This document shows, one piece after another, positions 4,402 to 19,339 of a stretch of 36,181 bases of DNA. Location: the IMG/VR virus record IMGVR_UViG_3300032286_000030, positions 1-36,181 of that record; one strand, written 5' to 3'. Numbering within the stretch: position 1 is the stretch's first letter; the number at the start of each line of letters is the position of its first letter. The notes under the pieces are model-generated. The model saw nothing but the letters and a program-made list of their open reading frames with translations, had not been told where the DNA came from and ran no database searches. Made by a program: the position numbers and the translations under genes. This DNA comes from a virus.

Positions 4402-5051
4402 CGCAAATCAAGTGGTCTTACTCAGGACTGAAAGAATACATTAACTGCCCACGTCAATACCATGAGACAAGGATTCTAAAAAAATATCAGAAAGAACCTA
4501 CTAAACAAATGATGTATGGCACTGAGGTACACAAAGCGTTAGAGGACTACGTAAATGAAGGTAAACCTCTACCATATAACTATCAAAGATTTAAAAAGCA
4601 AGTTGACTCTCTAATTGCTATTGATGGTGAGAAGTTGACTGAGTTTCAGATGGCTTTAGACGTTAACAAAAATCCCTGCGCGTGGGATGAACACTGGGTC
4701 AGGGGCATAGCCGACTTAGTTATCAAGGATGGAGACACTGCATATATTGTTGACTACAAGACAGGAAGCAACAAGTATCCCGACATAAAGCAGTTGCAGT
4801 TGATGGCACTAATGATCTTTGCACACTTCCCTGAAATCCAAACCGCCAAGACTGGGTTGCTATTTGTGATGCATGAACACTTTGTGCCTAAAGAATTCAA
4901 ACGAGAAGACGCAGATAGGCTTTGGAGGGATTTCCAACCAGACCTAGAACGGCTAAAATTGTCTTTAGAAAACGATAAGTGGCAAGAGAACCCAACGCCA
5001 CTATGCGGCTGGTGTCCAGTAAAAGTCTGCCAATTCCACAAGGAACGATAA
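4398..5051 (+). CDS. Cas4/RecB-like PD-(D/E)xK exonuclease with probable Fe-S cluster
   Basis: The 217-residue protein resembles the RecB-type nuclease domain (PF12705) and Cas4-like phage exonucleases. Visible motifs are SYSGLKEYINCPRQYH at the N-terminus, GTEVHKALE with His45, GIADLV with Asp106, VDYKTG with Asp119 and Lys121, and KQLQLMAL. Cys17 near the N-terminus together with Cys203, Cys206 and Cys211 near the C-terminus reproduces the four-cysteine arrangement that binds a 4Fe-4S cluster in Cas4 and AddB. It probably resects DNA ends for recombination-dependent replication. No cas1, cas2 or CRISPR repeats are nearby. The start overlaps the upstream stop (ATGA). Confidence 0.85.
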   Translation: MTQIKWSYSGLKEYINCPRQYHETRILKKYQKEPTKQMMYGTEVHKALEDYVNEGKPLPYNYQRFKKQVDSLIAIDGEKLTEFQMALDVNKNPCAWDEHWVRGIADLVIKDGDTAYIVDYKTGSNKYPDIKQLQLMALMIFAHFPEIQTAKTGLLFVMHEHFVPKEFKREDADRLWRDFQPDLERLKLSLENDKWQENPTPLCGWCPVKVCQFHKER

Positions 5052-5362
5052 TGCCCTACGTAAACAAACCAAGACCCTACAAAAAAGAATACCAACAAGA
5101 GAAAGAGCGTGGTGAACACGAGCGACGTATGGAACGTCAGCGTGGGCGTCGCTCTATCGACAAGCGTGATACTGGTACGGTTATGGAAACTTCACCCAAA
5201 CGCAAGGGTAAAGATGTTGCACACGTTGTAGCGCTTGACAAGGGCGGTTCAAACAAAAATGGACTACGCATAGAAAGCGCATCGAAGAATCGTTCATTCA
5301 AACGCGACTCTAAGGGAAACCTCGTATCAGAAACTAGCAAAAAAGAACGTAAAAGAACTTGA
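5051..5362 (+). CDS. Small basic HNH-like phage protein
   Basis: The protein has 103 residues. ATG 5051 overlaps the preceding TAA (TAATG); a GTG at 4979 in frame would lie inside the upstream gene and lacks support. The N-terminal 45 residues are highly charged (RRMERQRGRRSIDKR). Residues from about 58 to 90 read GKDVAHVVALDKGGSNKNG, then LRIESASKNRSFKRD. This resembles the core of small phage HNH-type proteins (D-x-x-H, a GG-S-N turn, and a final N-R-S). The usual zinc Cys pairs are missing, so nuclease activity is uncertain. The last codons overlap the -35 element of the promoter that follows. Confidence 0.6.
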   Translation: MPYVNKPRPYKKEYQQEKERGEHERRMERQRGRRSIDKRDTGTVMETSPKRKGKDVAHVVALDKGGSNKNGLRIESASKNRSFKRDSKGNLVSETSKKERKRT

Positions 5363-5388
5363 CAAATAAAAAACAGACCCCATAATAT
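5359..5388 (+). promoter_or_regulatory. Sigma70-type promoter
   Basis: TTGACA at 5359-5364 and TAATAT at 5383-5388 are separated by 18 bases. The -35 matches the consensus at all six positions and the -10 at five of six. It lies at the end of the previous gene and at the head of the longest non-coding gap of the + arm. Transcription would start near 5395, giving a leader of about 145 bases before the helicase gene. Confidence 0.8.
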
Positions 5389-5401
5389 TAAATACGCTGT
5401 T

Positions 5402-5518
5402 AGGTGTGAGTGGGCAAAGCAGAAACCGCATCAGTTAGTCGGCACAACGCTTTCTACTCATCTTAGGATGAGTTCCTCCCAGTGCGACAGGACTAACGGA
5501 CACCTCGGAAAGACGGGG
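5402..5518 (+). ncRNA. Candidate structured 5' leader RNA
   Basis: Directly downstream of the promoter the sequence folds into nested helices. P1 is AGGTGT 5402-5407 with ACACCT 5500-5505. P2 is GTTAGTC 5434-5440 with GACTAAC 5491-5497. P3 is GCAC 5442-5445 with GTGC 5482-5485. P4 is ACTCATC 5456-5462 with GATGAGT 5467-5473, closed by a TTAG loop. A further hairpin, CCTCG 5503-5507 with CGGGG 5514-5518, would use part of the P1 3' strand, so the two cannot form together. TGGG 5411-5414 could also pair with CCCA 5478-5481 as a pseudoknot. No known riboswitch consensus was recognised. It may regulate the helicase gene starting at 5540, stabilise the transcript, or act as a separate RNA. Confidence 0.55.
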
Positions 5519-5539
5519 ACTTAGTTTAAAAAAGGTAGT

Positions 5540-7117
5540 ATGGAAATAGTTAACAACAGTTTAGTTAGGATGAAATGTCCTACCAGTGTAGCCAAGTCAA
5601 TCGAACGCTACATTGAGAAAAGTGAAGTCCTTAGCGAATCACAAGGCATTGCCGATGTGGTCGTTAACTGGGGGCTTGATGAGATGCAACGTCTCGCAAG
5701 AATAGCCCCGCCTAGCATTAAGGTTCCATCGCCAATCGAGCGAGACTACCACTGGCCGGGTATGTTTAAGCCTTTCGATCATCAAAGAGATACTTCACGG
5801 TTCCTCTCTCTATACCGACGCGCATTCTGTTTCAACGAGGCGGGTACAGGCAAAACATCTGCGGCTATATGGGCGGCAGACTATCTAATGAATCAAGGCG
5901 TAGTAAGACGAGTTCTTGTTATCTGCCCTTTGTCAATCATGCATAGCGCATGGCAAGCCGATTTGTTTAAAACAGCAATGCATAGAACGTGCGCTATAGC
6001 ACATGGTGCTACATCTAAGCGCGAGAAAATTATTCGCAGTGATTATCAGTTTGTCATCATCAACTATGACGGTGTTGGTGTAGTGGAAAAGGCTATCGCT
6101 GAAAGCAAGTTTGATCTAATCATTATCGATGAAGCAAACGCATACAAGAACACTTCAACTAAGCGCTGGAAGACCCTCGCTCGGTTAGTTAAACCTGATA
6201 CATACTTGTGGATGATGACTGGAACGCCAGCCGCACAATCGCCAGAGGATGCGTTCGGACTCGCACGTTTAGTTAATCCTGATGGTGTTCCGCGATACAG
6301 AACAGCATGGCGCGATAAGGTCATGGTTCCTGTAACAAGATTCAAGTGGCGTCCTAAACCAGATTCGCGCACTACTGTCTTTGATGCGTTGCAACCGGCG
6401 ATACGCTATGAGAAAGCGCAGTGTCTTGACTTGCCTGAAGTGACATACCAAACACGCATGGTGCCTCTATCGCCGCAAGCATTGAAGTACTATAACGAAC
6501 TTGTTAAAGAGATGCAGATTAAAACTGCGGGGGAAACTATCAGCACTGTTAACGCCGCGGCCTCACTTACGCGCTTGCTTCAATTGTCAGGCGGGGCTGT
6601 GTACACAGATGACGGCAACGTGGTTGAGTTTGATATTGCACCGCGCTTAGCCGTGCTACAAGAAGTTTTAGATGAGTCACTTCACAAAGTGCTTATCTTT
6701 ATACCCTACAAACATACTCTGTCTTTAATTCAAAACCATCTAAATAAGTCTGGTATTTCTAATGAGATTATTTCTGGAGATGTTACCGCTATACAACGTG
6801 CAAATATCTTTAAGAACTTTCAGCTTAATACTGACCCTAGGGTATTACTTATCCAACCGCAAGCGGCGTCCCACGGGGTTACCCTAACTGCGGCAGACAC
6901 AGTAATATTTTGGTCTCCAGTTATGTCGGTAGAGACATACTTACAGTGTATCGCACGAATCGATCGAGTCGGTCAAAAGAACAGTATGACAGTAATACAC
7001 CTTCAGGGGTCCGAGGTGGAGCGGCGTATGTACACGATGTTGCAGAACAAAGTGGACTTACACGAAAAATTGGTGGACCTGTACAAAGACGAACTTAAAG
7101 GAAAAGACAATGAATGA
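5540..7117 (+). CDS. SNF2-type superfamily 2 helicase/translocase
   Basis: The protein has 525 residues and starts after AAGG five bases upstream of the ATG. Helicase motifs appear in order: Q/I region FKPFDHQRDTSRF, Walker A EAGTGKT (Lys105), motif II IIIDEAN (Asp197, Glu198), motif III MMTGTPA, then motif IV LIFIPYKHTL, motif V ASHGVTLTAADTVIF and motif VI CIARIDRVGQK (Arg473, Arg476). The RVGQ ending is typical of SNF2/Rad54-like proteins, which translocate on duplex DNA. Compact phage SNF2 proteins are found with polymerase and primase genes and probably remodel DNA or remove bound proteins during replication or recombination. The residues before about 65 do not match the family. It begins the transcription unit driven from 5359. 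Confidence 0.92.
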   Translation: MEIVNNSLVRMKCPTSVAKSIERYIEKSEVLSESQGIADVVVNWGLDEMQRLARIAPPSIKVPSPIERDYHWPGMFKPFDHQRDTSRFLSLYRRAFCFNEAGTGKTSAAIWAADYLMNQGVVRRVLVICPLSIMHSAWQADLFKTAMHRTCAIAHGATSKREKIIRSDYQFVIINYDGVGVVEKAIAESKFDLIIIDEANAYKNTSTKRWKTLARLVKPDTYLWMMTGTPAAQSPEDAFGLARLVNPDGVPRYRTAWRDKVMVPVTRFKWRPKPDSRTTVFDALQPAIRYEKAQCLDLPEVTYQTRMVPLSPQALKYYNELVKEMQIKTAGETISTVNAAASLTRLLQLSGGAVYTDDGNVVEFDIAPRLAVLQEVLDESLHKVLIFIPYKHTLSLIQNHLNKSGISNEIISGDVTAIQRANIFKNFQLNTDPRVLLIQPQAASHGVTLTAADTVIFWSPVMSVETYLQCIARIDRVGQKNSMTVIHLQGSEVERRMYTMLQNKVDLHEKLVDLYKDELKGKDNE

Positions 7118-7523
7118 CGGAGAAGCGTTAGTAAAAGATTATCTTGAGGTACGTAAGATGCGCGAGAATTTGAAGGCACAATACGAGTCCCAAGATTCAG
7201 ACCTCAAAGATGCTATGGAAGAAATAGAAGCCGCAATGCTTGCTGTATGTAACGAGACTAACATGAATGGTTTCCGCACAACGCATGGCACTGTTACACG
7301 CACAGTGAAAGAGCGGTTCTTCTGTACTGATTGGGATCATTTCAAAGAATTTATCAATCAAGAAGGTTCTATCGATTTGTTGGAGCGTCGTATCCACCAA
7401 AAGAACTTTAAAGAATTTATATCTGAGCGTGCGCAAGACGGCTTGCCACCCGGAGTAAATGCTTTGCGTGAGTACGATATTGTCGTGCGCAAGGCTTCAT
7501 CAACCAGTGAAACTACAGTTTAA
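7110..7523 (+). CDS. Conserved phage coiled-coil protein in the replication cluster
   Basis: The protein has 137 residues, overlaps the helicase end by eight bases and has AAGGA about eight bases before its ATG. Residues 5-50 form a coiled coil (KDYLEVRKMRENLKAQYESQ and following). A compact domain follows, with HGTVTRTVKERFFCTDWDHF, then LLERRIHQKNFKEFI and GLPPGVNALREYDIVVRK. I recognise the pattern (coil, GT-x-x-R, a TDWD-F segment, RIHQ-N, LPPG) from many unannotated phage proteins next to polymerase and helicase genes. It is loosely reminiscent of Gp157- or Gam-like DNA metabolism proteins, but I cannot assign a function. Confidence 0.8.
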   Translation: MNDGEALVKDYLEVRKMRENLKAQYESQDSDLKDAMEEIEAAMLAVCNETNMNGFRTTHGTVTRTVKERFFCTDWDHFKEFINQEGSIDLLERRIHQKNFKEFISERAQDGLPPGVNALREYDIVVRKASSTSETTV

Positions 7524-11650: not shown

Positions 11651-11849
11651 CACTCCGTTTGACGAACCTACATGGGTTTTCCCCTACGCTGGTATGGGCG
11701 TGGGGGATAGTTTTTTCCTACCAACAATGAAACCTGCATATATGTCTTATATCATCGACACTACAGCAAAAAAGGCTGGTGTTGTAATGAAGGTGTTTAC
11801 AACAACCGAGAAGGACGTTCTCGGTGTTCGTGCGTGGCGTATAAGTTAA
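11625..11849 (+). CDS. Small conserved phage protein (74 aa)
   Basis: The protein starts at ATG 11625, overlaps the primase end by 26 bases and ends in TAA at 11847-11849. The sequence has a Pro-rich start (MSKKPSPSDTPFDEPTW), GVGDSFFLP and a final VLGVRAWRIS. I recall the G-D-S-F-F-x-P and G-V-R-x-W-R pattern from short phage proteins located after primase genes, none with an established role. Size and basic character would suit a small DNA-binding or inhibitor protein, but this is a guess. The final bases overlap the end of the opposing giant gene, and its coding region contains a long inverted repeat (11805-11825). Confidence 0.72.
   Translation: MSKKPSPSDTPFDEPTWVFPYAGMGVGDSFFLPTMKPAYMSYIIDTTAKKAGVVMKVFTTTEKDVLGVRAWRIS
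11805..11825 (-). terminator. Candidate terminator of the late (- strand) operon
   Basis: ACCGAGAA at 11805-11812 is a perfect inverted repeat with TTCTCGGT at 11818-11825, with a five-base loop. In the - strand transcript it lies 20 bases past the stop codon of the giant late gene and is followed by TGTTGT, a weak U-rich tract. It is inside the coding region of the opposing + gene. A role in ending late transcription, or in both directions, is inferred from position. Confidence 0.45.
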
Positions 11850-14800
11850 GGCTTGATACCCATCTCCGCAAACATATCTAGTAGTTGACGTTTGACGATG
11901 TTTGACATGCCATTTATTTCTTCTAACTGGAGTTTGCGTTCACGGGGGGTCAACTCATCGCTAGATCTGATTTGATTAGCAGCCGCACGTAACTGTCTTA
12001 ACTGACCGTTGACTTGCTGGTTGTAGAACTGAACCGCAACATACTCGTCTTGGTGTGAGTCTAAGTAATTACTTAACAACTCTGGCTTGTCCTTCAGCGC
12101 GTTGATACGTTTATCAAATCCTTTGATCTGCTCTTCAACTTTGCTAAATTCGCGGGCATCTATGTTGGACTTAGTGCCGATGAAACTACCAATAAACGGT
12201 ATATCGTTCTTTGGATCAAAACCTTTTTGACCTGCTACTGTTAGTCCAAGGTTAGTAACTGCCGTAGCCATCTTTGCCGCGCCATCAGCATAGTTATTAG
12301 CGAAGAAGTACATGGTGTTTGGACTCCAGTCAACTCCACCATCAGTTGCTTTGAACAGCATACGAGCCGCCATCTTATAGGCTTCAGGGATGTTGTCGCC
12401 GCCTGTGTATGCATCACCGAAGCGTGTCTGACGATTGTTGTAAATCTCACGACCTAAACCATCCATATTCATCACGTATTCGAAGAACGGGCGGAACGCA
12501 GATGGAGTTACTGAGTCCATAGCCCATGCTGGGAAATTTTCTATCGGGCTAATACGTGAGAATGGTAACGGCAAGAATGAGTCCATGCCAACAGTCATGA
12601 TGTTGGAGAATGCTTCAGCAATAGACACACGCCCTGTGGATAGGGCCGCAATCTGAGAGCCAGCAGATGCGAAAGCACCTGGCCCGAAGCCCCAAGGTAT
12701 TTGGATTGGGTTCTCAATTCCTGGGATGAAGAATCTAGCGTAGCGAGTCCAACGCGCCATGTCATCTGTAGCGATACGGTTGCGACCTTGGTCATCATCA
12801 CCAGCCATCATCAGAGCCATCATGTAGAACGCTACACCAATGCCAGCCATAGTAGCCATCATGCGACGTGCAGCATACTGACGCTCATTCATAATCTCGA
12901 CAGCTTGATCAATCTGCGCTTTAGTGCGACCTTCAGCTTCAGCTTCTTTGCGGAACTGTTCTTCATTAAAACTAAATGCGGGAGCCAGCGCCTCGATAGC
13001 ACGGACAGCACCAGTAGCGGCAGGACGGAAGAACATGAATAGCGCACCAGCTTGCTTACCCCAACGACCGATCTGCTCAAAGTTGGCGAGGTTCTTGGCA
13101 TACTCAACGGCACGAATCCTTGCGTCTTCTTTTGCCTCTGCTGGATCCATCTTGTTTTTCAAGTTCTGGTTGTAGTACTCATCCTTGATCAATCTATAGG
13201 CCGCTACACGGCTAGACAATTCAAACATGTCGTTATAGATATCAATGAACTTGTCTACTTGGTCTTTCTTCTTAAGAATGCCAGACCGCCCAACTTCTTT
13301 AATAAGTTCATCTAGCGCGCCTCTAGCGGCAACGCCTTGCAGATAAGAAACGCGACCGCCCATCTCGACGTAATCAGACAAATCACGGTAGTAACGCTGC
13401 TGTTCGTCTAGGCTTTCGTATGGTTTGCCGTTACCTGCTAAACGGTTAATGTCATCAAACTTACCATCAGCATATAGTCTTGAATAATTCAGCGCTCTAG
13501 CAAGACCGTTGTTGGCAACATCAGATGCCATACCGCTAAGTAACTTACCGCCTGTTACAGGGTCAAACTCAGCGCCAATGATTCCAGCGTTAGTGAATGA
13601 ATCTCGCACAAAGTTCATTGGTGCGAAAGCAGGGTTGTAGCGAGTGTGTGTCTGACCGATACCGCTGGTGATCTGATCGACCATGTTAATCAGAGGATTG
13701 GTTGTCTTTGTACTGCGCTTGATGGCTTCAGCCATATCTTTGCCAGTAATACTCCACACATCAATTGTGCCATCAGGTTTGTACAAGAAGATTTTGTTTG
13801 GACCTGTAATGTCTTGTCTAGTTGTACGACCAGCATAACGATCAGAAAACTTAATCGTGGTAACAGGTTCACCCTTTATGATTCCAGACTTGATTGCGTT
13901 GACGATAGTTTCAGGCAATATCTTGCGACCAGCATTGAGTGCGGCAGAAGCGCCGTCAGCAAGTGACTGAAGGATTGGGTTCTCAGATTCAGATATACGA
14001 CCCTTGAATGGGTCTTGTAGTTTTGTGAACTCGCCACCTAAACGCTTACCGTCAAAATTAAACTCTTCGTCAATCGTACGGTTCTCAGGTCTGCCTTTGA
14101 ACGGTACATAGTCTTTGAACCCGTAGAAGTCTACGAAGTTGGCAACAGGCTCAGACCAATAGTTGGCTTCTTTGTTGAGCTTGATTGTTTTCTTATTTAG
14201 ATCACGTAGCGCTTGAGATACGGCATCGATCTCTGCCTTGTATTCTGGTCGGTCTAGCGTATCACGGAATGCCTGTATCTCTTGTGGTGAGCGACCAGCA
14301 ATCACGTTGTATCTTTCATTAGACTCATTAAAATACGCCGCCTCTACAAGCTTGCCATTCTTAATCTTTAGATGAGACTTAGGGTCAGCTACTACGGTCT
14401 CAAGCATCTGACGTAGTTTTTGTGCGCGGGCAGTGCGTTGCTCGTCAGTCAAACCGGGTGTTGGCTCTGTCAATGTATCTATGATGTTTTGACGGATAGT
14501 AGCGGCGGCATAGTACTCGTTACCTATCTTGTAAGTTGGGTTGTCATCCAACGGCACATTCAACAGATACTTGACGTGGCGACGCTCTGGCTCATGGCGA
14601 GCCTGCATTATCAGATGCAGTTTAGATAACGCTTCCTTCACAGGAATGCCAAGTTTTGTTGCATAGGCTTCTACCGCTTTGTCTACAGCAACACTCTCTG
14701 AGCGCACTTCGGTGTTGTACTTATGTACGGCTATACCAATAGAACGGCTGAAAGCGTTGTAGACGTCATTAGCGTTTTCACCTACAGCAGTCACAAGACC

Positions 14801-17800
14801 AAACATGCGGGCACGGTCAAACAATACCTTTAGTGGGTAGCGGTCATTCTGGAAGAACTCAACTGCGGACTGAAAACCATTTTTGGTAAACAAGTTCTTA
14901 AAGAATGCTTTAGGTGTGCGATCTTTAAGTCCTACGTTTTTCTCAGCTTCTGCTGTCATTTGTTCAGCAGACTGCTGACCTGGTGTGGTGGCCTGAACAG
15001 TTTTAGCAGCGCCTTTAGATGGCAGTGTTTCTCCAAAGCCTTCTTTGCCAGCAAGATTAGTGATACCACCTTCAGGCGCAGCAAGAATATCTTCCGTAGC
15101 CATAAACAATTCCATCAGAGCATTGCCCCGATATCCTGGCTCGGTGTTACGGATGCGATCTAGATTAGTTACTCCAGCCTTGCGGAATAATTGGCTTGTT
15201 ATATCTTTAGGTTTACCCTCACCGCCTTTTGTTATAGCGGCTTCTTTAGCTAGTTCTTCAGGGTTATCGTATAACGCTTCTTGATCAAACGCCGCTTTTT
15301 CAGCAGGTGTTAATTCGCCGCGTGATTCTTTTTCCACCAACTCCATAGCGGCGTCAATTCTTTCTTGTTCAGAAAGTTCTTCGTCTTTTTGTTTTTTAGT
15401 TTTGCGCGGCGCATCGTAACCTTTAGCCTCTGAAAACTCAGTTGGCGTTTTTTGCGCCATTGAACCTAAACGCGCTGGAGTTAGCCCAAGTTTTGTTATG
15501 CCAATCCCAGCAGCAATCTTGTTGATTTCATCAAACAGTTGATAGACGCCAACAACCCTCTTGATGCCTCTTCTTTTTTCAACACCTGTTGGGTTGCGCG
15601 TTGCTTCAGATACAACAACTAATCGTTTGTTGTATTTGTCTATAAGTTGTTTAGCTTGTCTTACAGCACTAGAGTCTTCTGTTAATGCAGTGTTAGTGCT
15701 TGCCGAATTCCTGCCAACAAAAGACATTGCCGCTGGGTTAATTACTTCAGCTTTAATTCTTTCAATCGCATCTGCAAGAATTTTTTTGTTAGCGCCGTCG
15801 CGTACTTGAGTCTCCCACGCTTCTCGCTCTCTCATATCTTGTATAGCGGCTGCGTCATCTTTAGAGTTTTCTGAAGCTACTAAGTATTTAGTAACTTTTG
15901 CGTTAGGACGGAACAACTGATACAGATGTGCAATAGCGCCAACAAACTGACCCCATAAAGTGTCAAACAAGTTTTCATACCCACGCAAGGCTCGTTCACG
16001 GCGCTTGACCAACTCAGGGTCTTGCTCCGCAGTCTTGTCTGTGTATTTAGTAAGGCTAGGTTTTTGTATCTTATGGAGTTCGTTTTGGAACTCCAGATCG
16101 GTCATGGCGTAGGCCACAAACTCATACAAGTTATCAAATGCATTCTTGTACTTATCAGAAGTGATGACTGACTTAGCTACAGAAGCAATATCTTCCAGAT
16201 GCTTAATAGCTTCGCGTTGGTTTTTTGTTAGCGAGTCTGGATCAGAATAGTATTTATGGATAAGCCTGACAGTTGCAGCGTGCGTAAGTTCGTGCAGTAG
16301 CGTTGCTTCATCAAGCCCAAATGGACCAAGAATTACAGTGTTTGTTCTGTAGTTGTATTCGCCTATCGTGTTGAAGACAAGTTTTGGATCAAACGCAACG
16401 TTGACTTTGAAGTCTTTTACGTCTAACAGTTTTTCAGCAAGGTTTTTGAAGACCAATGAAGAGAACACTTTGTTAGCCATCAAAGCTTGCTGCTGCGGCG
16501 TGTTCTCACTGATCTGTCTTTTCTCAACCGTGAACGAGTCGCCGTATCTATCAGCATAGGCTTCAAAGTCACCCAGACTCAATACGTTGCCAATTTTGAA
16601 TGGCACTTCATCTTTTATGTCGTCAGCAATCTCGGTGACTGTGTAGCCGTAGCGCACACGTCCAAACTTGGACTTGCCAATCTTTATACCTTTAGCTTCG
16701 TTTCTAAGATACTCTAGGGCAGCCTTGACATCACCGCGACGCAACTTAACAAGAATACCTAGCGGCAACAAACTGCCTTTACCTGCTGGCTGATTCTTGC
16801 GCTCTTGTTGCGCTTGGCGATACATCTGTCCTATGGCTATTGCTTCCGCATCAGTAGCGGCATCTTTAGCTTTCTCGCCTTTGGCTTCTAGTTCTACTTG
16901 TTCTTTGACAAGGTTCAATGCCAAAGACTGCTCTAAAACAGTATCGTTTACGTTTGCTGAACCAAATAGATTCTTACTGGCTCTAGATAAACTTTCCCAA
17001 GGGGGCAACGTGCCAATAGATGGGAACAGTTTGCGCTGGTCTTCATAGCGTACCCCCATAGCAGCATCAGCTTTTACTAATGTCTGTACGGCTTCTTTGT
17101 CCTGACCAAGTTGTGTAGCTTGTCTACCGACTGCTTCTGATTCAGAACGCTTCTTCTCTAAATGCGCACCAACTTTTTGAATTGCTTTAGCTATAGCTTC
17201 TTTGCGTTCTTCTGGAAACGGTAAAGATATACGGGACTTTATGTCTGTATTGAGTGGCGCTACATCAGGCCCAGTTATGTTGCTAAGAAATATTCTTACA
17301 GCATCTGGGTTTTCTCTTAGAAGATCATTAAATTTAGGCGTTACTGTGCCAGCAGCTTTGGCTTTAAACTTTGCGTTGTGTTCAGCAGCCGCCGCTTCAT
17401 AAGCATTTACAACTGCAGGGGATATACGGTTCTTTAAAGAATCTAACTCAGCAAGAGAACTTTCAATCGCTGCTATTAAAGACTCTTCGTCTTCATATTT
17501 AGATGCATCTACTTCCGCATCAGCCGCTAGTTCAAGCAGTTCAGGATCAAACCCTTCGCCTTTGGACGGGAGTTTGTCTTGTTTCTTTTTCTTTAATTCT
17601 TCTAGTCTGTTACGTAAATCAAACTTTTTAACTGGCGCTTTTTGTTTAGCCTCAGTAAAGTCAGGTACGTCTTGCTCCGCTTCTCCAGCCGCTAGTAAAT
17701 CATCTACTGTGCGATTTATTGGAGCGGGCTGTGCATCTTCTCGTTCATCAACCCGTGTAAGAGCTTCTCCATCACGAACCACTCTTCCGGGTTCAATTGC

Positions 17801-19339
17801 TTGAGGTCCTCCGGCGGGGGGAACGTTTGTACTGGCTGCGCCAGATATGCCAGCGCTTTCTCCACCTGCTCCACTGATAGACTGCTTAACATCTTCTGCT
17901 CCTGTTGTAGGCGCTTGGGCAAGCGCGGTGCGTGCTGCATCTATTTCAGCCTTTAATTTTTCATTTTTTGCTATACGAGCTTTTAGAGTGCCTGCTTCTT
18001 CTTGAGTTAAAGAAGGCTTACTCTGCGCGTCAGCAATGTTCTTTGCGCGTGTATCGTAATCTGCTTGCTTTGCATCAATCTCAGGAGTAGTTACCGCAGG
18101 CGGAGCCGCAGGCATAACAAACCCTTCTGGAAGGGCTTCTAGTGTTTCATTGCCAGTAAAGGCCATACCCTTACCGCCGGGTGGTAGCAGTGTCTCGGGC
18201 GCAGTTTCATCTGTTATCTCTCCGCCGGGTGGAACTTCCTGTTGTGTTTGTTGTGTTTGTGTCTCTGTAGAAGGTGGTGCTGTTGGGCCCTTACCGAACG
18301 CTACATCAGTAGCCGCAGTTATACCTGCGCCACCAAAGCCACCTTTTAGACCTGCATTGATAAAGCGCTCAAAGTTCTTCTCAGAGAAAAACTGCTGGTT
18401 GTTATCAACAAACTTTTCAGCCGCAGCAGACGATACTTCTTGTAGTGCCTCAGTGCCGCCTTCAGAGATAAAACCTTGGACTGCGCCTTTGCCTGCACGC
18501 TTGTACCACGCGGCTGCAACTTCTTCTGGGCTAACTCCAGCCTTAGACATCTTGCGTAACAAGGCGATAGGAGTGATTGCATCTAGTGCAGAGTTAAACG
18601 CACCAAATGCTAGAGCCGCGCCAAGGTCTTGCTTACCTGTTGCCTCATAAATGTTTTGGTAAACGTCAGGGACGTTCTGTGCCGCAGAGCCAGCCAACGC
18701 ACCAGCGGTTTGATACTTCAACCCAATCTTTTGCGCTTCTTTTATACCAGCATCTAATGCTTGTTTTTTAATGGCTTCAAGAGTAGCGGCTTGGATTGGC
18801 CCTGCTTCCATAGCCTTTACAACCCCGCGACTTGCCACTTGTTCTGCGGCCTGCATAGCAGCAGCCTGTGCGCCACGACCTGCTACGCCAGCTAGTCCAC
18901 CAGTAAGAACGCTTGGCAATATGGACGGCAACGCTTCGCCAATAGACTCTTTAACGTAGGTTAGCGCTTTGCCAACACTATCAATATCTTTGTATGACGC
19001 AACTTCTGCGGGGTAAAGTCTTTCAGTTTCTTTCTGGTACGCAGCGGCCTCTTCCATTTGCCGTCTTGCGTAGTCTTCAGCGCCAAATGCTTTACCAAGC
19101 ATGGCTGGGGCAACGTCACCTAATAAAGAAGAAATGCCGCGACCACCGCGTATGACGGATGGAATGAAGCCAGTTTCTCCCTTTTGTTCTATGGGAGCAG
19201 CGACAGGAGCCTCTGGCTCCATACCGCCCATGTTTAGATACTGATCTAAAAAGAACGATGCTTCTTTCGTGCTTAATCCGGGCGGGCCATCAAAGCGATA
19301 TGCCTTACCGTCAGCACCCCTTGCGCGGTATGTCGCCAT
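11846..19339 (-). CDS. Giant polyvalent virion protein with metallopeptidase motif and LPD38-like region
   Basis: The protein has 2497 residues, with GGAT upstream of the ATG. The N-terminus (MATYRARGADGKAYRFDGPP) is followed by Ala/Gly-rich, partly hydrophobic helices (about 100-350), then long charged and Pro/Thr-rich linkers. A zinc metallopeptidase motif, LLHELTHA, has His1016, Glu1017 and His1020; a likely third ligand is Glu1073 in NLYEFVAYAM. This matches the MPTase-type domain of phage polyvalent proteins. The last third, from TRYNPAFAPMNFVRDSFTNA onward, resembles LPD38 (PF18857) and contains a hydrophobic segment (MATMAGIGVAFYMMALMMAG). Such proteins are packaged and enter the cell with the DNA. 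It is the last gene of the late block. Virion location is inferred. Confidence 0.82.
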   Translation of the reverse strand: MATYRARGADGKAYRFDGPPGLSTKEASFFLDQYLNMGGMEPEAPVAAPIEQKGETGFIPSVIRGGRGISSLLGDVAPAMLGKAFGAEDYARRQMEEAAAYQKETERLYPAEVASYKDIDSVGKALTYVKESIGEALPSILPSVLTGGLAGVAGRGAQAAAMQAAEQVASRGVVKAMEAGPIQAATLEAIKKQALDAGIKEAQKIGLKYQTAGALAGSAAQNVPDVYQNIYEATGKQDLGAALAFGAFNSALDAITPIALLRKMSKAGVSPEEVAAAWYKRAGKGAVQGFISEGGTEALQEVSSAAAEKFVDNNQQFFSEKNFERFINAGLKGGFGGAGITAATDVAFGKGPTAPPSTETQTQQTQQEVPPGGEITDETAPETLLPPGGKGMAFTGNETLEALPEGFVMPAAPPAVTTPEIDAKQADYDTRAKNIADAQSKPSLTQEEAGTLKARIAKNEKLKAEIDAARTALAQAPTTGAEDVKQSISGAGGESAGISGAASTNVPPAGGPQAIEPGRVVRDGEALTRVDEREDAQPAPINRTVDDLLAAGEAEQDVPDFTEAKQKAPVKKFDLRNRLEELKKKKQDKLPSKGEGFDPELLELAADAEVDASKYEDEESLIAAIESSLAELDSLKNRISPAVVNAYEAAAAEHNAKFKAKAAGTVTPKFNDLLRENPDAVRIFLSNITGPDVAPLNTDIKSRISLPFPEERKEAIAKAIQKVGAHLEKKRSESEAVGRQATQLGQDKEAVQTLVKADAAMGVRYEDQRKLFPSIGTLPPWESLSRASKNLFGSANVNDTVLEQSLALNLVKEQVELEAKGEKAKDAATDAEAIAIGQMYRQAQQERKNQPAGKGSLLPLGILVKLRRGDVKAALEYLRNEAKGIKIGKSKFGRVRYGYTVTEIADDIKDEVPFKIGNVLSLGDFEAYADRYGDSFTVEKRQISENTPQQQALMANKVFSSLVFKNLAEKLLDVKDFKVNVAFDPKLVFNTIGEYNYRTNTVILGPFGLDEATLLHELTHAATVRLIHKYYSDPDSLTKNQREAIKHLEDIASVAKSVITSDKYKNAFDNLYEFVAYAMTDLEFQNELHKIQKPSLTKYTDKTAEQDPELVKRRERALRGYENLFDTLWGQFVGAIAHLYQLFRPNAKVTKYLVASENSKDDAAAIQDMREREAWETQVRDGANKKILADAIERIKAEVINPAAMSFVGRNSASTNTALTEDSSAVRQAKQLIDKYNKRLVVVSEATRNPTGVEKRRGIKRVVGVYQLFDEINKIAAGIGITKLGLTPARLGSMAQKTPTEFSEAKGYDAPRKTKKQKDEELSEQERIDAAMELVEKESRGELTPAEKAAFDQEALYDNPEELAKEAAITKGGEGKPKDITSQLFRKAGVTNLDRIRNTEPGYRGNALMELFMATEDILAAPEGGITNLAGKEGFGETLPSKGAAKTVQATTPGQQSAEQMTAEAEKNVGLKDRTPKAFFKNLFTKNGFQSAVEFFQNDRYPLKVLFDRARMFGLVTAVGENANDVYNAFSRSIGIAVHKYNTEVRSESVAVDKAVEAYATKLGIPVKEALSKLHLIMQARHEPERRHVKYLLNVPLDDNPTYKIGNEYYAAATIRQNIIDTLTEPTPGLTDEQRTARAQKLRQMLETVVADPKSHLKIKNGKLVEAAYFNESNERYNVIAGRSPQEIQAFRDTLDRPEYKAEIDAVSQALRDLNKKTIKLNKEANYWSEPVANFVDFYGFKDYVPFKGRPENRTIDEEFNFDGKRLGGEFTKLQDPFKGRISESENPILQSLADGASAALNAGRKILPETIVNAIKSGIIKGEPVTTIKFSDRYAGRTTRQDITGPNKIFLYKPDGTIDVWSITGKDMAEAIKRSTKTTNPLINMVDQITSGIGQTHTRYNPAFAPMNFVRDSFTNAGIIGAEFDPVTGGKLLSGMASDVANNGLARALNYSRLYADGKFDDINRLAGNGKPYESLDEQQRYYRDLSDYVEMGGRVSYLQGVAARGALDELIKEVGRSGILKKKDQVDKFIDIYNDMFELSSRVAAYRLIKDEYYNQNLKNKMDPAEAKEDARIRAVEYAKNLANFEQIGRWGKQAGALFMFFRPAATGAVRAIEALAPAFSFNEEQFRKEAEAEGRTKAQIDQAVEIMNERQYAARRMMATMAGIGVAFYMMALMMAGDDDQGRNRIATDDMARWTRYARFFIPGIENPIQIPWGFGPGAFASAGSQIAALSTGRVSIAEAFSNIMTVGMDSFLPLPFSRISPIENFPAWAMDSVTPSAFRPFFEYVMNMDGLGREIYNNRQTRFGDAYTGGDNIPEAYKMAARMLFKATDGGVDWSPNTMYFFANNYADGAAKMATAVTNLGLTVAGQKGFDPKNDIPFIGSFIGTKSNIDAREFSKVEEQIKGFDKRINALKDKPELLSNYLDSHQDEYVAVQFYNQQVNGQLRQLRAAANQIRSSDELTPRERKLQLEEINGMSNIVKRQLLDMFAEMGIKP

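Follow-up and report, generated by a model that had tools for sequence, protein, structure and literature searches.

The window analysed here is the whole of a virus record, 36,181 bases in length, in which the gene of an SNF2-family helicase (positions 5540 to 7117; Pfam PF00176 SNF2-rel_dom, 4.7e-24; PHROG 62 DNA helicase) follows that of a 103-aa HNH-like protein (5051-5362; phrog_4590, E 7.6e-7). Both lie on the + strand, and the gap between them (5363-5539), taken on that strand, holds no ORF of at least 20 aa. An earlier note on this DNA had called it the only long non-coding gap; it is the longest, but others exist. That note had also placed a near-consensus promoter ahead of a leader in the gap, and a sigma-70-type promoter matching the consensus at 11 of 12 positions is indeed found there, with TTGACA at 5359-5364, 16 nt, and CATAAT at 5381-5386 on the + strand; further along the same strand, AAGG at 5532-5535 is the putative Shine-Dalgarno sequence of SNF2. 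Elsewhere in the window, a 137-aa protein encoded between SNF2 and the replication genes (7110-7523) matches PHROG 13900 'minor head protein', a label that may be wrong, and a single ORF of 2,497 aa on the - strand (11846-19339) occupies one fifth of the total length.

When 80 viral loci were gathered by their SNF2 protein, a pattern was found to recur in the gap before SNF2, beginning with GUWAG-GYRUG-AGUG and an insert that varies, and continuing through AAC-CRYRUC-AG to a stem and a hairpin. A covariance model (R1), built from 30 sequences and containing only the helices P1 and P2 without a pseudoknot, matches the window with a score of 62 bits and recovers the RNA in 64 of 80 SNF2 loci, in every case directly upstream of SNF2 and on a constant strand relative to it, while no match occurs elsewhere in the 719 kb searched on both strands. 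The R1 alignment of 57 distinct rows contains 296 double-change cells, against 86.8 when shuffled and no more than 42 once the partners are slid; the sequences being metagenomic and related, these and the other cell counts given below do not represent independent events.

Comparative evidence shows a core made up of a P1 hairpin, a pseudoknot, the conserved elements AGUG, AAC and CA, a 7-bp P2, a P3 and a 3' hairpin, all on the + strand. P1 pairs 5396-5398 with 5413-5415 around the loop GTTAGGTGTGAGTG, with a conserved A5402 and AGUG at 5409-5412; in the window it is degenerate, having 3 bp only, and it is weak in the window's own clade, while in relatives it covaries at 7 of 7 pairs with 78% of cells paired. 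The best-supported helix is one that the earlier note did not have, a pseudoknot joining GGUGUG (5403-5408) to CGCAUC (5427-5432), the latter having an invariant AAC (5424-5426) before it and A5433 after it; it is intact in the window, 99.4% paired, and shows double changes at 4 of 6 pairs. P2 (5434-5440/5491-5497) is paired in 98.5% of cells and has double changes at all seven of its pairs. Through a 1x5 internal loop, G / GACAG, it connects to P3 (5442-5445/5482-5485), for which a register search over 79 distinct relatives gave 1/5 as the best offset. Beyond P3 lies a variable apical region (5446-5481), with a lineage-specific hairpin at 5456-5462/5467-5473 and CUCC at 5476-5479. The 3' hairpin of the window, CCUCG-GAAAGA-CGGGG at 5503-5518, has no U run; a hairpin stands 3' of P2 in 69 of the 79 relatives (shuffled rate 0.39), most commonly with a C-GUAA loop, and a U-rich tract follows it in only 19-25 of the 79.

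Because the R1 seed sequences had been picked partly on their pseudoknot pairing, even though the pseudoknot is outside R1, a prospective test was run in the branch whose pseudoknot reads GCCGG/CCGGC. The compensated pattern GCUGG/CCAGC (U-A) gave 12 matches, in 11 of which the motif is surrounded by P1 and P2 (mostly near copies, of about four kinds), and the mismatched pattern GCCGG/CCAGC (C-A) gave nine, comprising two RNAs and seven chance-like matches.

This fold differs from that of the earlier note, which had read 5402-5518 as a structured RNA leader of four nested helices with a possible further pseudoknot. All the strings it named are complementary (P1 AGGTGT/ACACCT, P2 GTTAGTC/GACTAAC, P3 GCAC/GTGC, P4 ACTCATC/GATGAGT, pseudoknot TGGG/CCCA), and its P2 is the P2 described above. 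Its P3 holds in part, since 40 of the 79 distinct relatives form the complete 4-bp helix at one and the same offset. Three elements were dropped as conserved features after comparison of relatives: the earlier P1 (5402-5407/5500-5505), which only 7 of 65 relatives could form and whose 5' bases are those of the pseudoknot at 5403-5408/5427-5432, so that the two helices compete; P4 (5456-5462/5467-5473), with similar apical hairpins in 22 of 75 (shuffled 12.9); and the pseudoknot 5411-5414 with 5478-5481, which is at chance level (11 of 74, shuffled 12.4). What replaces the nested arrangement is a P1 hairpin with a loop pseudoknot, P2, P3, a variable apex and a separate 3' hairpin. Folding energy is barely below that of shuffled sequence for 5402-5518 (z -1.06, 29 of 200 shuffles as good) and 5402-5505 (z -1.45, 16 of 200), and not at all for the full leader at 5393-5545 (z +0.30, 124 of 200). 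On energy alone the claim of a structured leader would fail; it is the comparison that decides, and given the compensatory changes among homologues we accept the leader RNA ahead of SNF2 as real.

Promoters matching at least 10 of 12 positions lie ahead of 24 of 78 distinct relatives, against 0.87 in shuffles, and in 15 of those 24 the -10 element ends 9-16 nt before the AG motif, so that transcription would begin at the base of P1. For the window we infer a start at about 5392-5394, as we do the ends of the RNA, so that SNF2 transcripts would begin with this RNA.

Some 15 of these 80 loci keep SNF2 but have no copy of the RNA. Gain or loss of the RNA on the SNF2 tree amounts to about 5-6 events, and as one locus (L077) has the motif by eye but was missed by R1, the number of changes is about five rather than six. 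Since neighbouring genes, among them the HNH-like gene upstream, are retained in loci with the RNA as well as in loci lacking it, the RNA behaves as a module. The HNH-like protein itself precedes SNF2 in almost every related locus, namely in 64 of 64 with the RNA and 12 of 16 without it, and was rejected as the partner of the RNA. In one locus a likely HNH homing endonuclease gene lies between the RNA and SNF2 (L153, 5736-8000) and is absent from the closely related L199. By R1, the RNA is absent from those cultured phages whose SNF2 proteins are closest (35-40% identity).

Pattern scans produced further phage copies, and SNF2 is the next gene downstream in 167 of 191 motif matches, a count that includes the loci selected by SNF2. 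The same core also exists as stand-alone RNAs in other phages and in a few bacterial chromosomes. In four phage loci (L151, L163, L188, L208) it follows a primase-helicase-like gene, with strong terminators and convergent genes behind it; in L188 and L208 a protein of the HNH-like type precedes the primase-helicase-like gene. Stand-alone copies with terminator hairpins are present in the chromosomes of Polynucleobacter and Methylophilales HTCC2181, and a Xanthomonas prophage carries one, likewise with a terminator hairpin, behind its terminase gene; copies are rare in genomes, being found in 5 of 399 of Polynucleobacter's order and in 3 of 398 of a phylum sample. Two further variants may be recorded. 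In L167 (3264-3450) the CGAATCA after the pseudoknot could pair with the 3' arm of a strong terminator (TGATTCGG), as in a transcription switch, and in another phage group (L229, L230, L239-L247) the motif stands ahead of a gene starting MRATTIAEVLKLADEY, with P1 and P2 that look altered and an R1 score of 28.8 bits.

A possible function is suggested by the apical region, which contains CUCC in 58 of 79 distinct relatives, where dinucleotide shuffles predict 18.4 (sd 3.5). It is present in 56 of 66 SNF2-linked copies and 1 of 12 stand-alone copies (Fisher 4.7e-7, with linkage assigned by tblastn and confounded by ancestry), while its association with the presence of any nearby gene is marginal (p 0.05). 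Apical regions pair with an ideal Shine-Dalgarno sequence at -8.4 kcal/mol, compared with -5.8 for shuffles. That CUCC is common in SNF2-linked copies and nearly absent from stand-alone ones suggests control of SNF2 translation in cis by an anti-Shine-Dalgarno loop placed behind a portable core, and this enrichment and linkage lead us to favour such control, tentatively, over a trans-acting sRNA. The core would be a domain that recognises a partner, most likely a protein. In stand-alone copies it would work as an sRNA; in SNF2-linked copies it would be coupled to the apical CUCC loop and the 3' hairpin, and these would hold down SNF2 expression in cis for as long as the core was neither bound nor refolded. 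We count in favour of cis control the position of R1 matches upstream of SNF2, the covariation, the prospective pseudoknot test, the placement of promoters, CUCC, the pairing of apical regions with an ideal Shine-Dalgarno sequence, and the gain and loss of the module. Against it we count the ancestry that confounds CUCC, the match between CUCC and the Shine-Dalgarno sequence of the window, which is about 3 bp only, the terminated stand-alone copies, which point to a role in trans, the loci that have SNF2 without the RNA, and the lack of cis-specific co-evolution between loop and SNF2 Shine-Dalgarno sequence (native duplexes -8.88, permuted -8.72, 567 of 2000 permutations as good).

The terminated copies also speak for an RNA that acts in trans, as a discrete phage sRNA of about 110-150 nt that would begin at a promoter of its own and end with the 3' hairpin, with host or phage targets and only an incidental placement before SNF2. 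Besides the four phage loci with convergent genes, the chromosomal and prophage copies with terminator hairpins would fit such an RNA, as would the typing of Proteo-phage-1 as sRNA by Rfam and the gain and loss of the RNA in the SNF2 tree. Yet with a U-rich tract after the hairpin in so few relatives, many transcripts would extend into SNF2; besides, 64 of 80 loci keep the RNA ahead of that gene, and CUCC tracks SNF2 linkage. We regard action in trans as the chief rival reading, though a doubtful one. We consider it unlikely that the RNA is a cis-acting processive antitermination element working like put of HK022, which would carry transcription past downstream terminators from the start of an operon. 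Some plausibility is lent to such a role by the positions of two Proteo-phage-1 copies, one in phage phiAH14a, flanked by the nin region on one side and the holin and terminase genes on the other, which we take to be where lambda has its late promoter and 6S leader, and one in PS-1, within an early operon and before endonuclease, Bet and Exo; the window copy, after a promoter and before replication genes, would suit it as well. However, stand-alone copies end in terminators that face convergent genes, where antitermination would be useless. Less probable still is a metabolite riboswitch or self-cleaving ribozyme, which the compact pseudoknot, the roughly eight invariant nucleotides near the junction and the leader position might bring to mind, since none of the riboswitches or ribozymes in Rfam attains its cut-off, the genes downstream have no metabolic role and the stand-alone copies have no regulated gene. 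Finally, a signal acting at the level of DNA, such as a site of replication or recombination, would agree with the inverted repeats and the location among replication genes but is highly improbable, because the helices that covary often contain G-U pairs (one pseudoknot pair is G-U in 46 of 57 rows), which favours RNA, and because the strand relative to SNF2 is constant and a promoter lies directly upstream.

With the corrected fold, Rfam's short two-hairpin sRNA family gains a conserved pseudoknot and a further helix, a large environmental branch of RNAs related to Proteo-phage-1 becomes the leader of a helicase gene, and the RNA is placed at several control points of phage operons. The fold also yields testable mutants, and opens a widespread and barely studied group of phage RNAs to experiment. 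It is conceivable, if on the unlikely side, that one pseudoknotted fold, occurring as free sRNA, late-operon leader and SNF2 leader, serves as a portable domain recognising one conserved partner, a host or phage protein, by which many unrelated phages would control their own operons or the host.

Among known systems, Polynucleobacter-1 RNA (RF01718), a cis-regulatory candidate, resembles the RNA described here in its Burkholderiales and freshwater distribution (PMC2864571). The RF01718 model gave no matches in the phage records, its 37-bit score not being reached at the RNA, and a match in the P. rarus genome was set aside as a different sequence without the motif. In HK022 put and the lambda 6S leader, structured RNA likewise stands at the start of phage operons, and the phiAH14a copy occupies the place that the late promoter has in lambda; unlike these, our RNA has terminated stand-alone copies.

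The earlier note knew of no RNA class with its layout, and no family of Rfam 15 reaches its gathering score in the window or in 16 related loci; intermediates nevertheless link the architecture to Proteo-phage-1 (RF03044), a name reportedly given by Weinberg in 2017. Two of them score below the 42-bit cut-off of RF03044 (L223, the Xanthomonas copy, at 29.4 bits and L222 at 26.7) and are found by R1 too, at 27.7 and 41 bits, while 24 related phage records gave one weak RF03044 match at the RNA (L202, 15.4 bits). A member above the cut-off (L258, 52.6 bits) and at least about 100 IMG/VR members recognised by pattern share the order P1, AG[pk]..AGUG, AAC[pk]CA and 3' hairpins, many with a 7-bp P2; three other RF03044 matches (L259-L261) were without the motif and were dropped. 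In the structure line of Rfam the pseudoknot bases are given as unpaired, and the line stops at the start of P2. The two branches differ in the pseudoknot, GCCGG/CCGGC in Proteo-phage-1 and GGyrUG/CRyrUC in the SNF2 leaders, in the leader position itself, and in the hairpin upstream of P1, the first RF03044 stem, in place of which the window has its promoter. As the window does not match RF03044 even at E 10, we place it as a relative within a broader group instead of counting it as a member. Both branches are borne by phages and prophages, some 3' hairpins have C-GUAA or GAAAGA loops in both, and in an alignment with 15 members of the RF03044 type eight columns are invariant across both branches. 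The window, like Proteo-phage-1, has a P1 hairpin with an AG...AGUG loop followed by AAC...CAG, and its pseudoknot and 7-bp P2 directly after CA match the group as redefined here. On the comparative evidence, the SNF2 leader is a genuine conserved phage RNA, whose widespread pseudoknotted architecture is shared with the Proteo-phage-1 RNAs.
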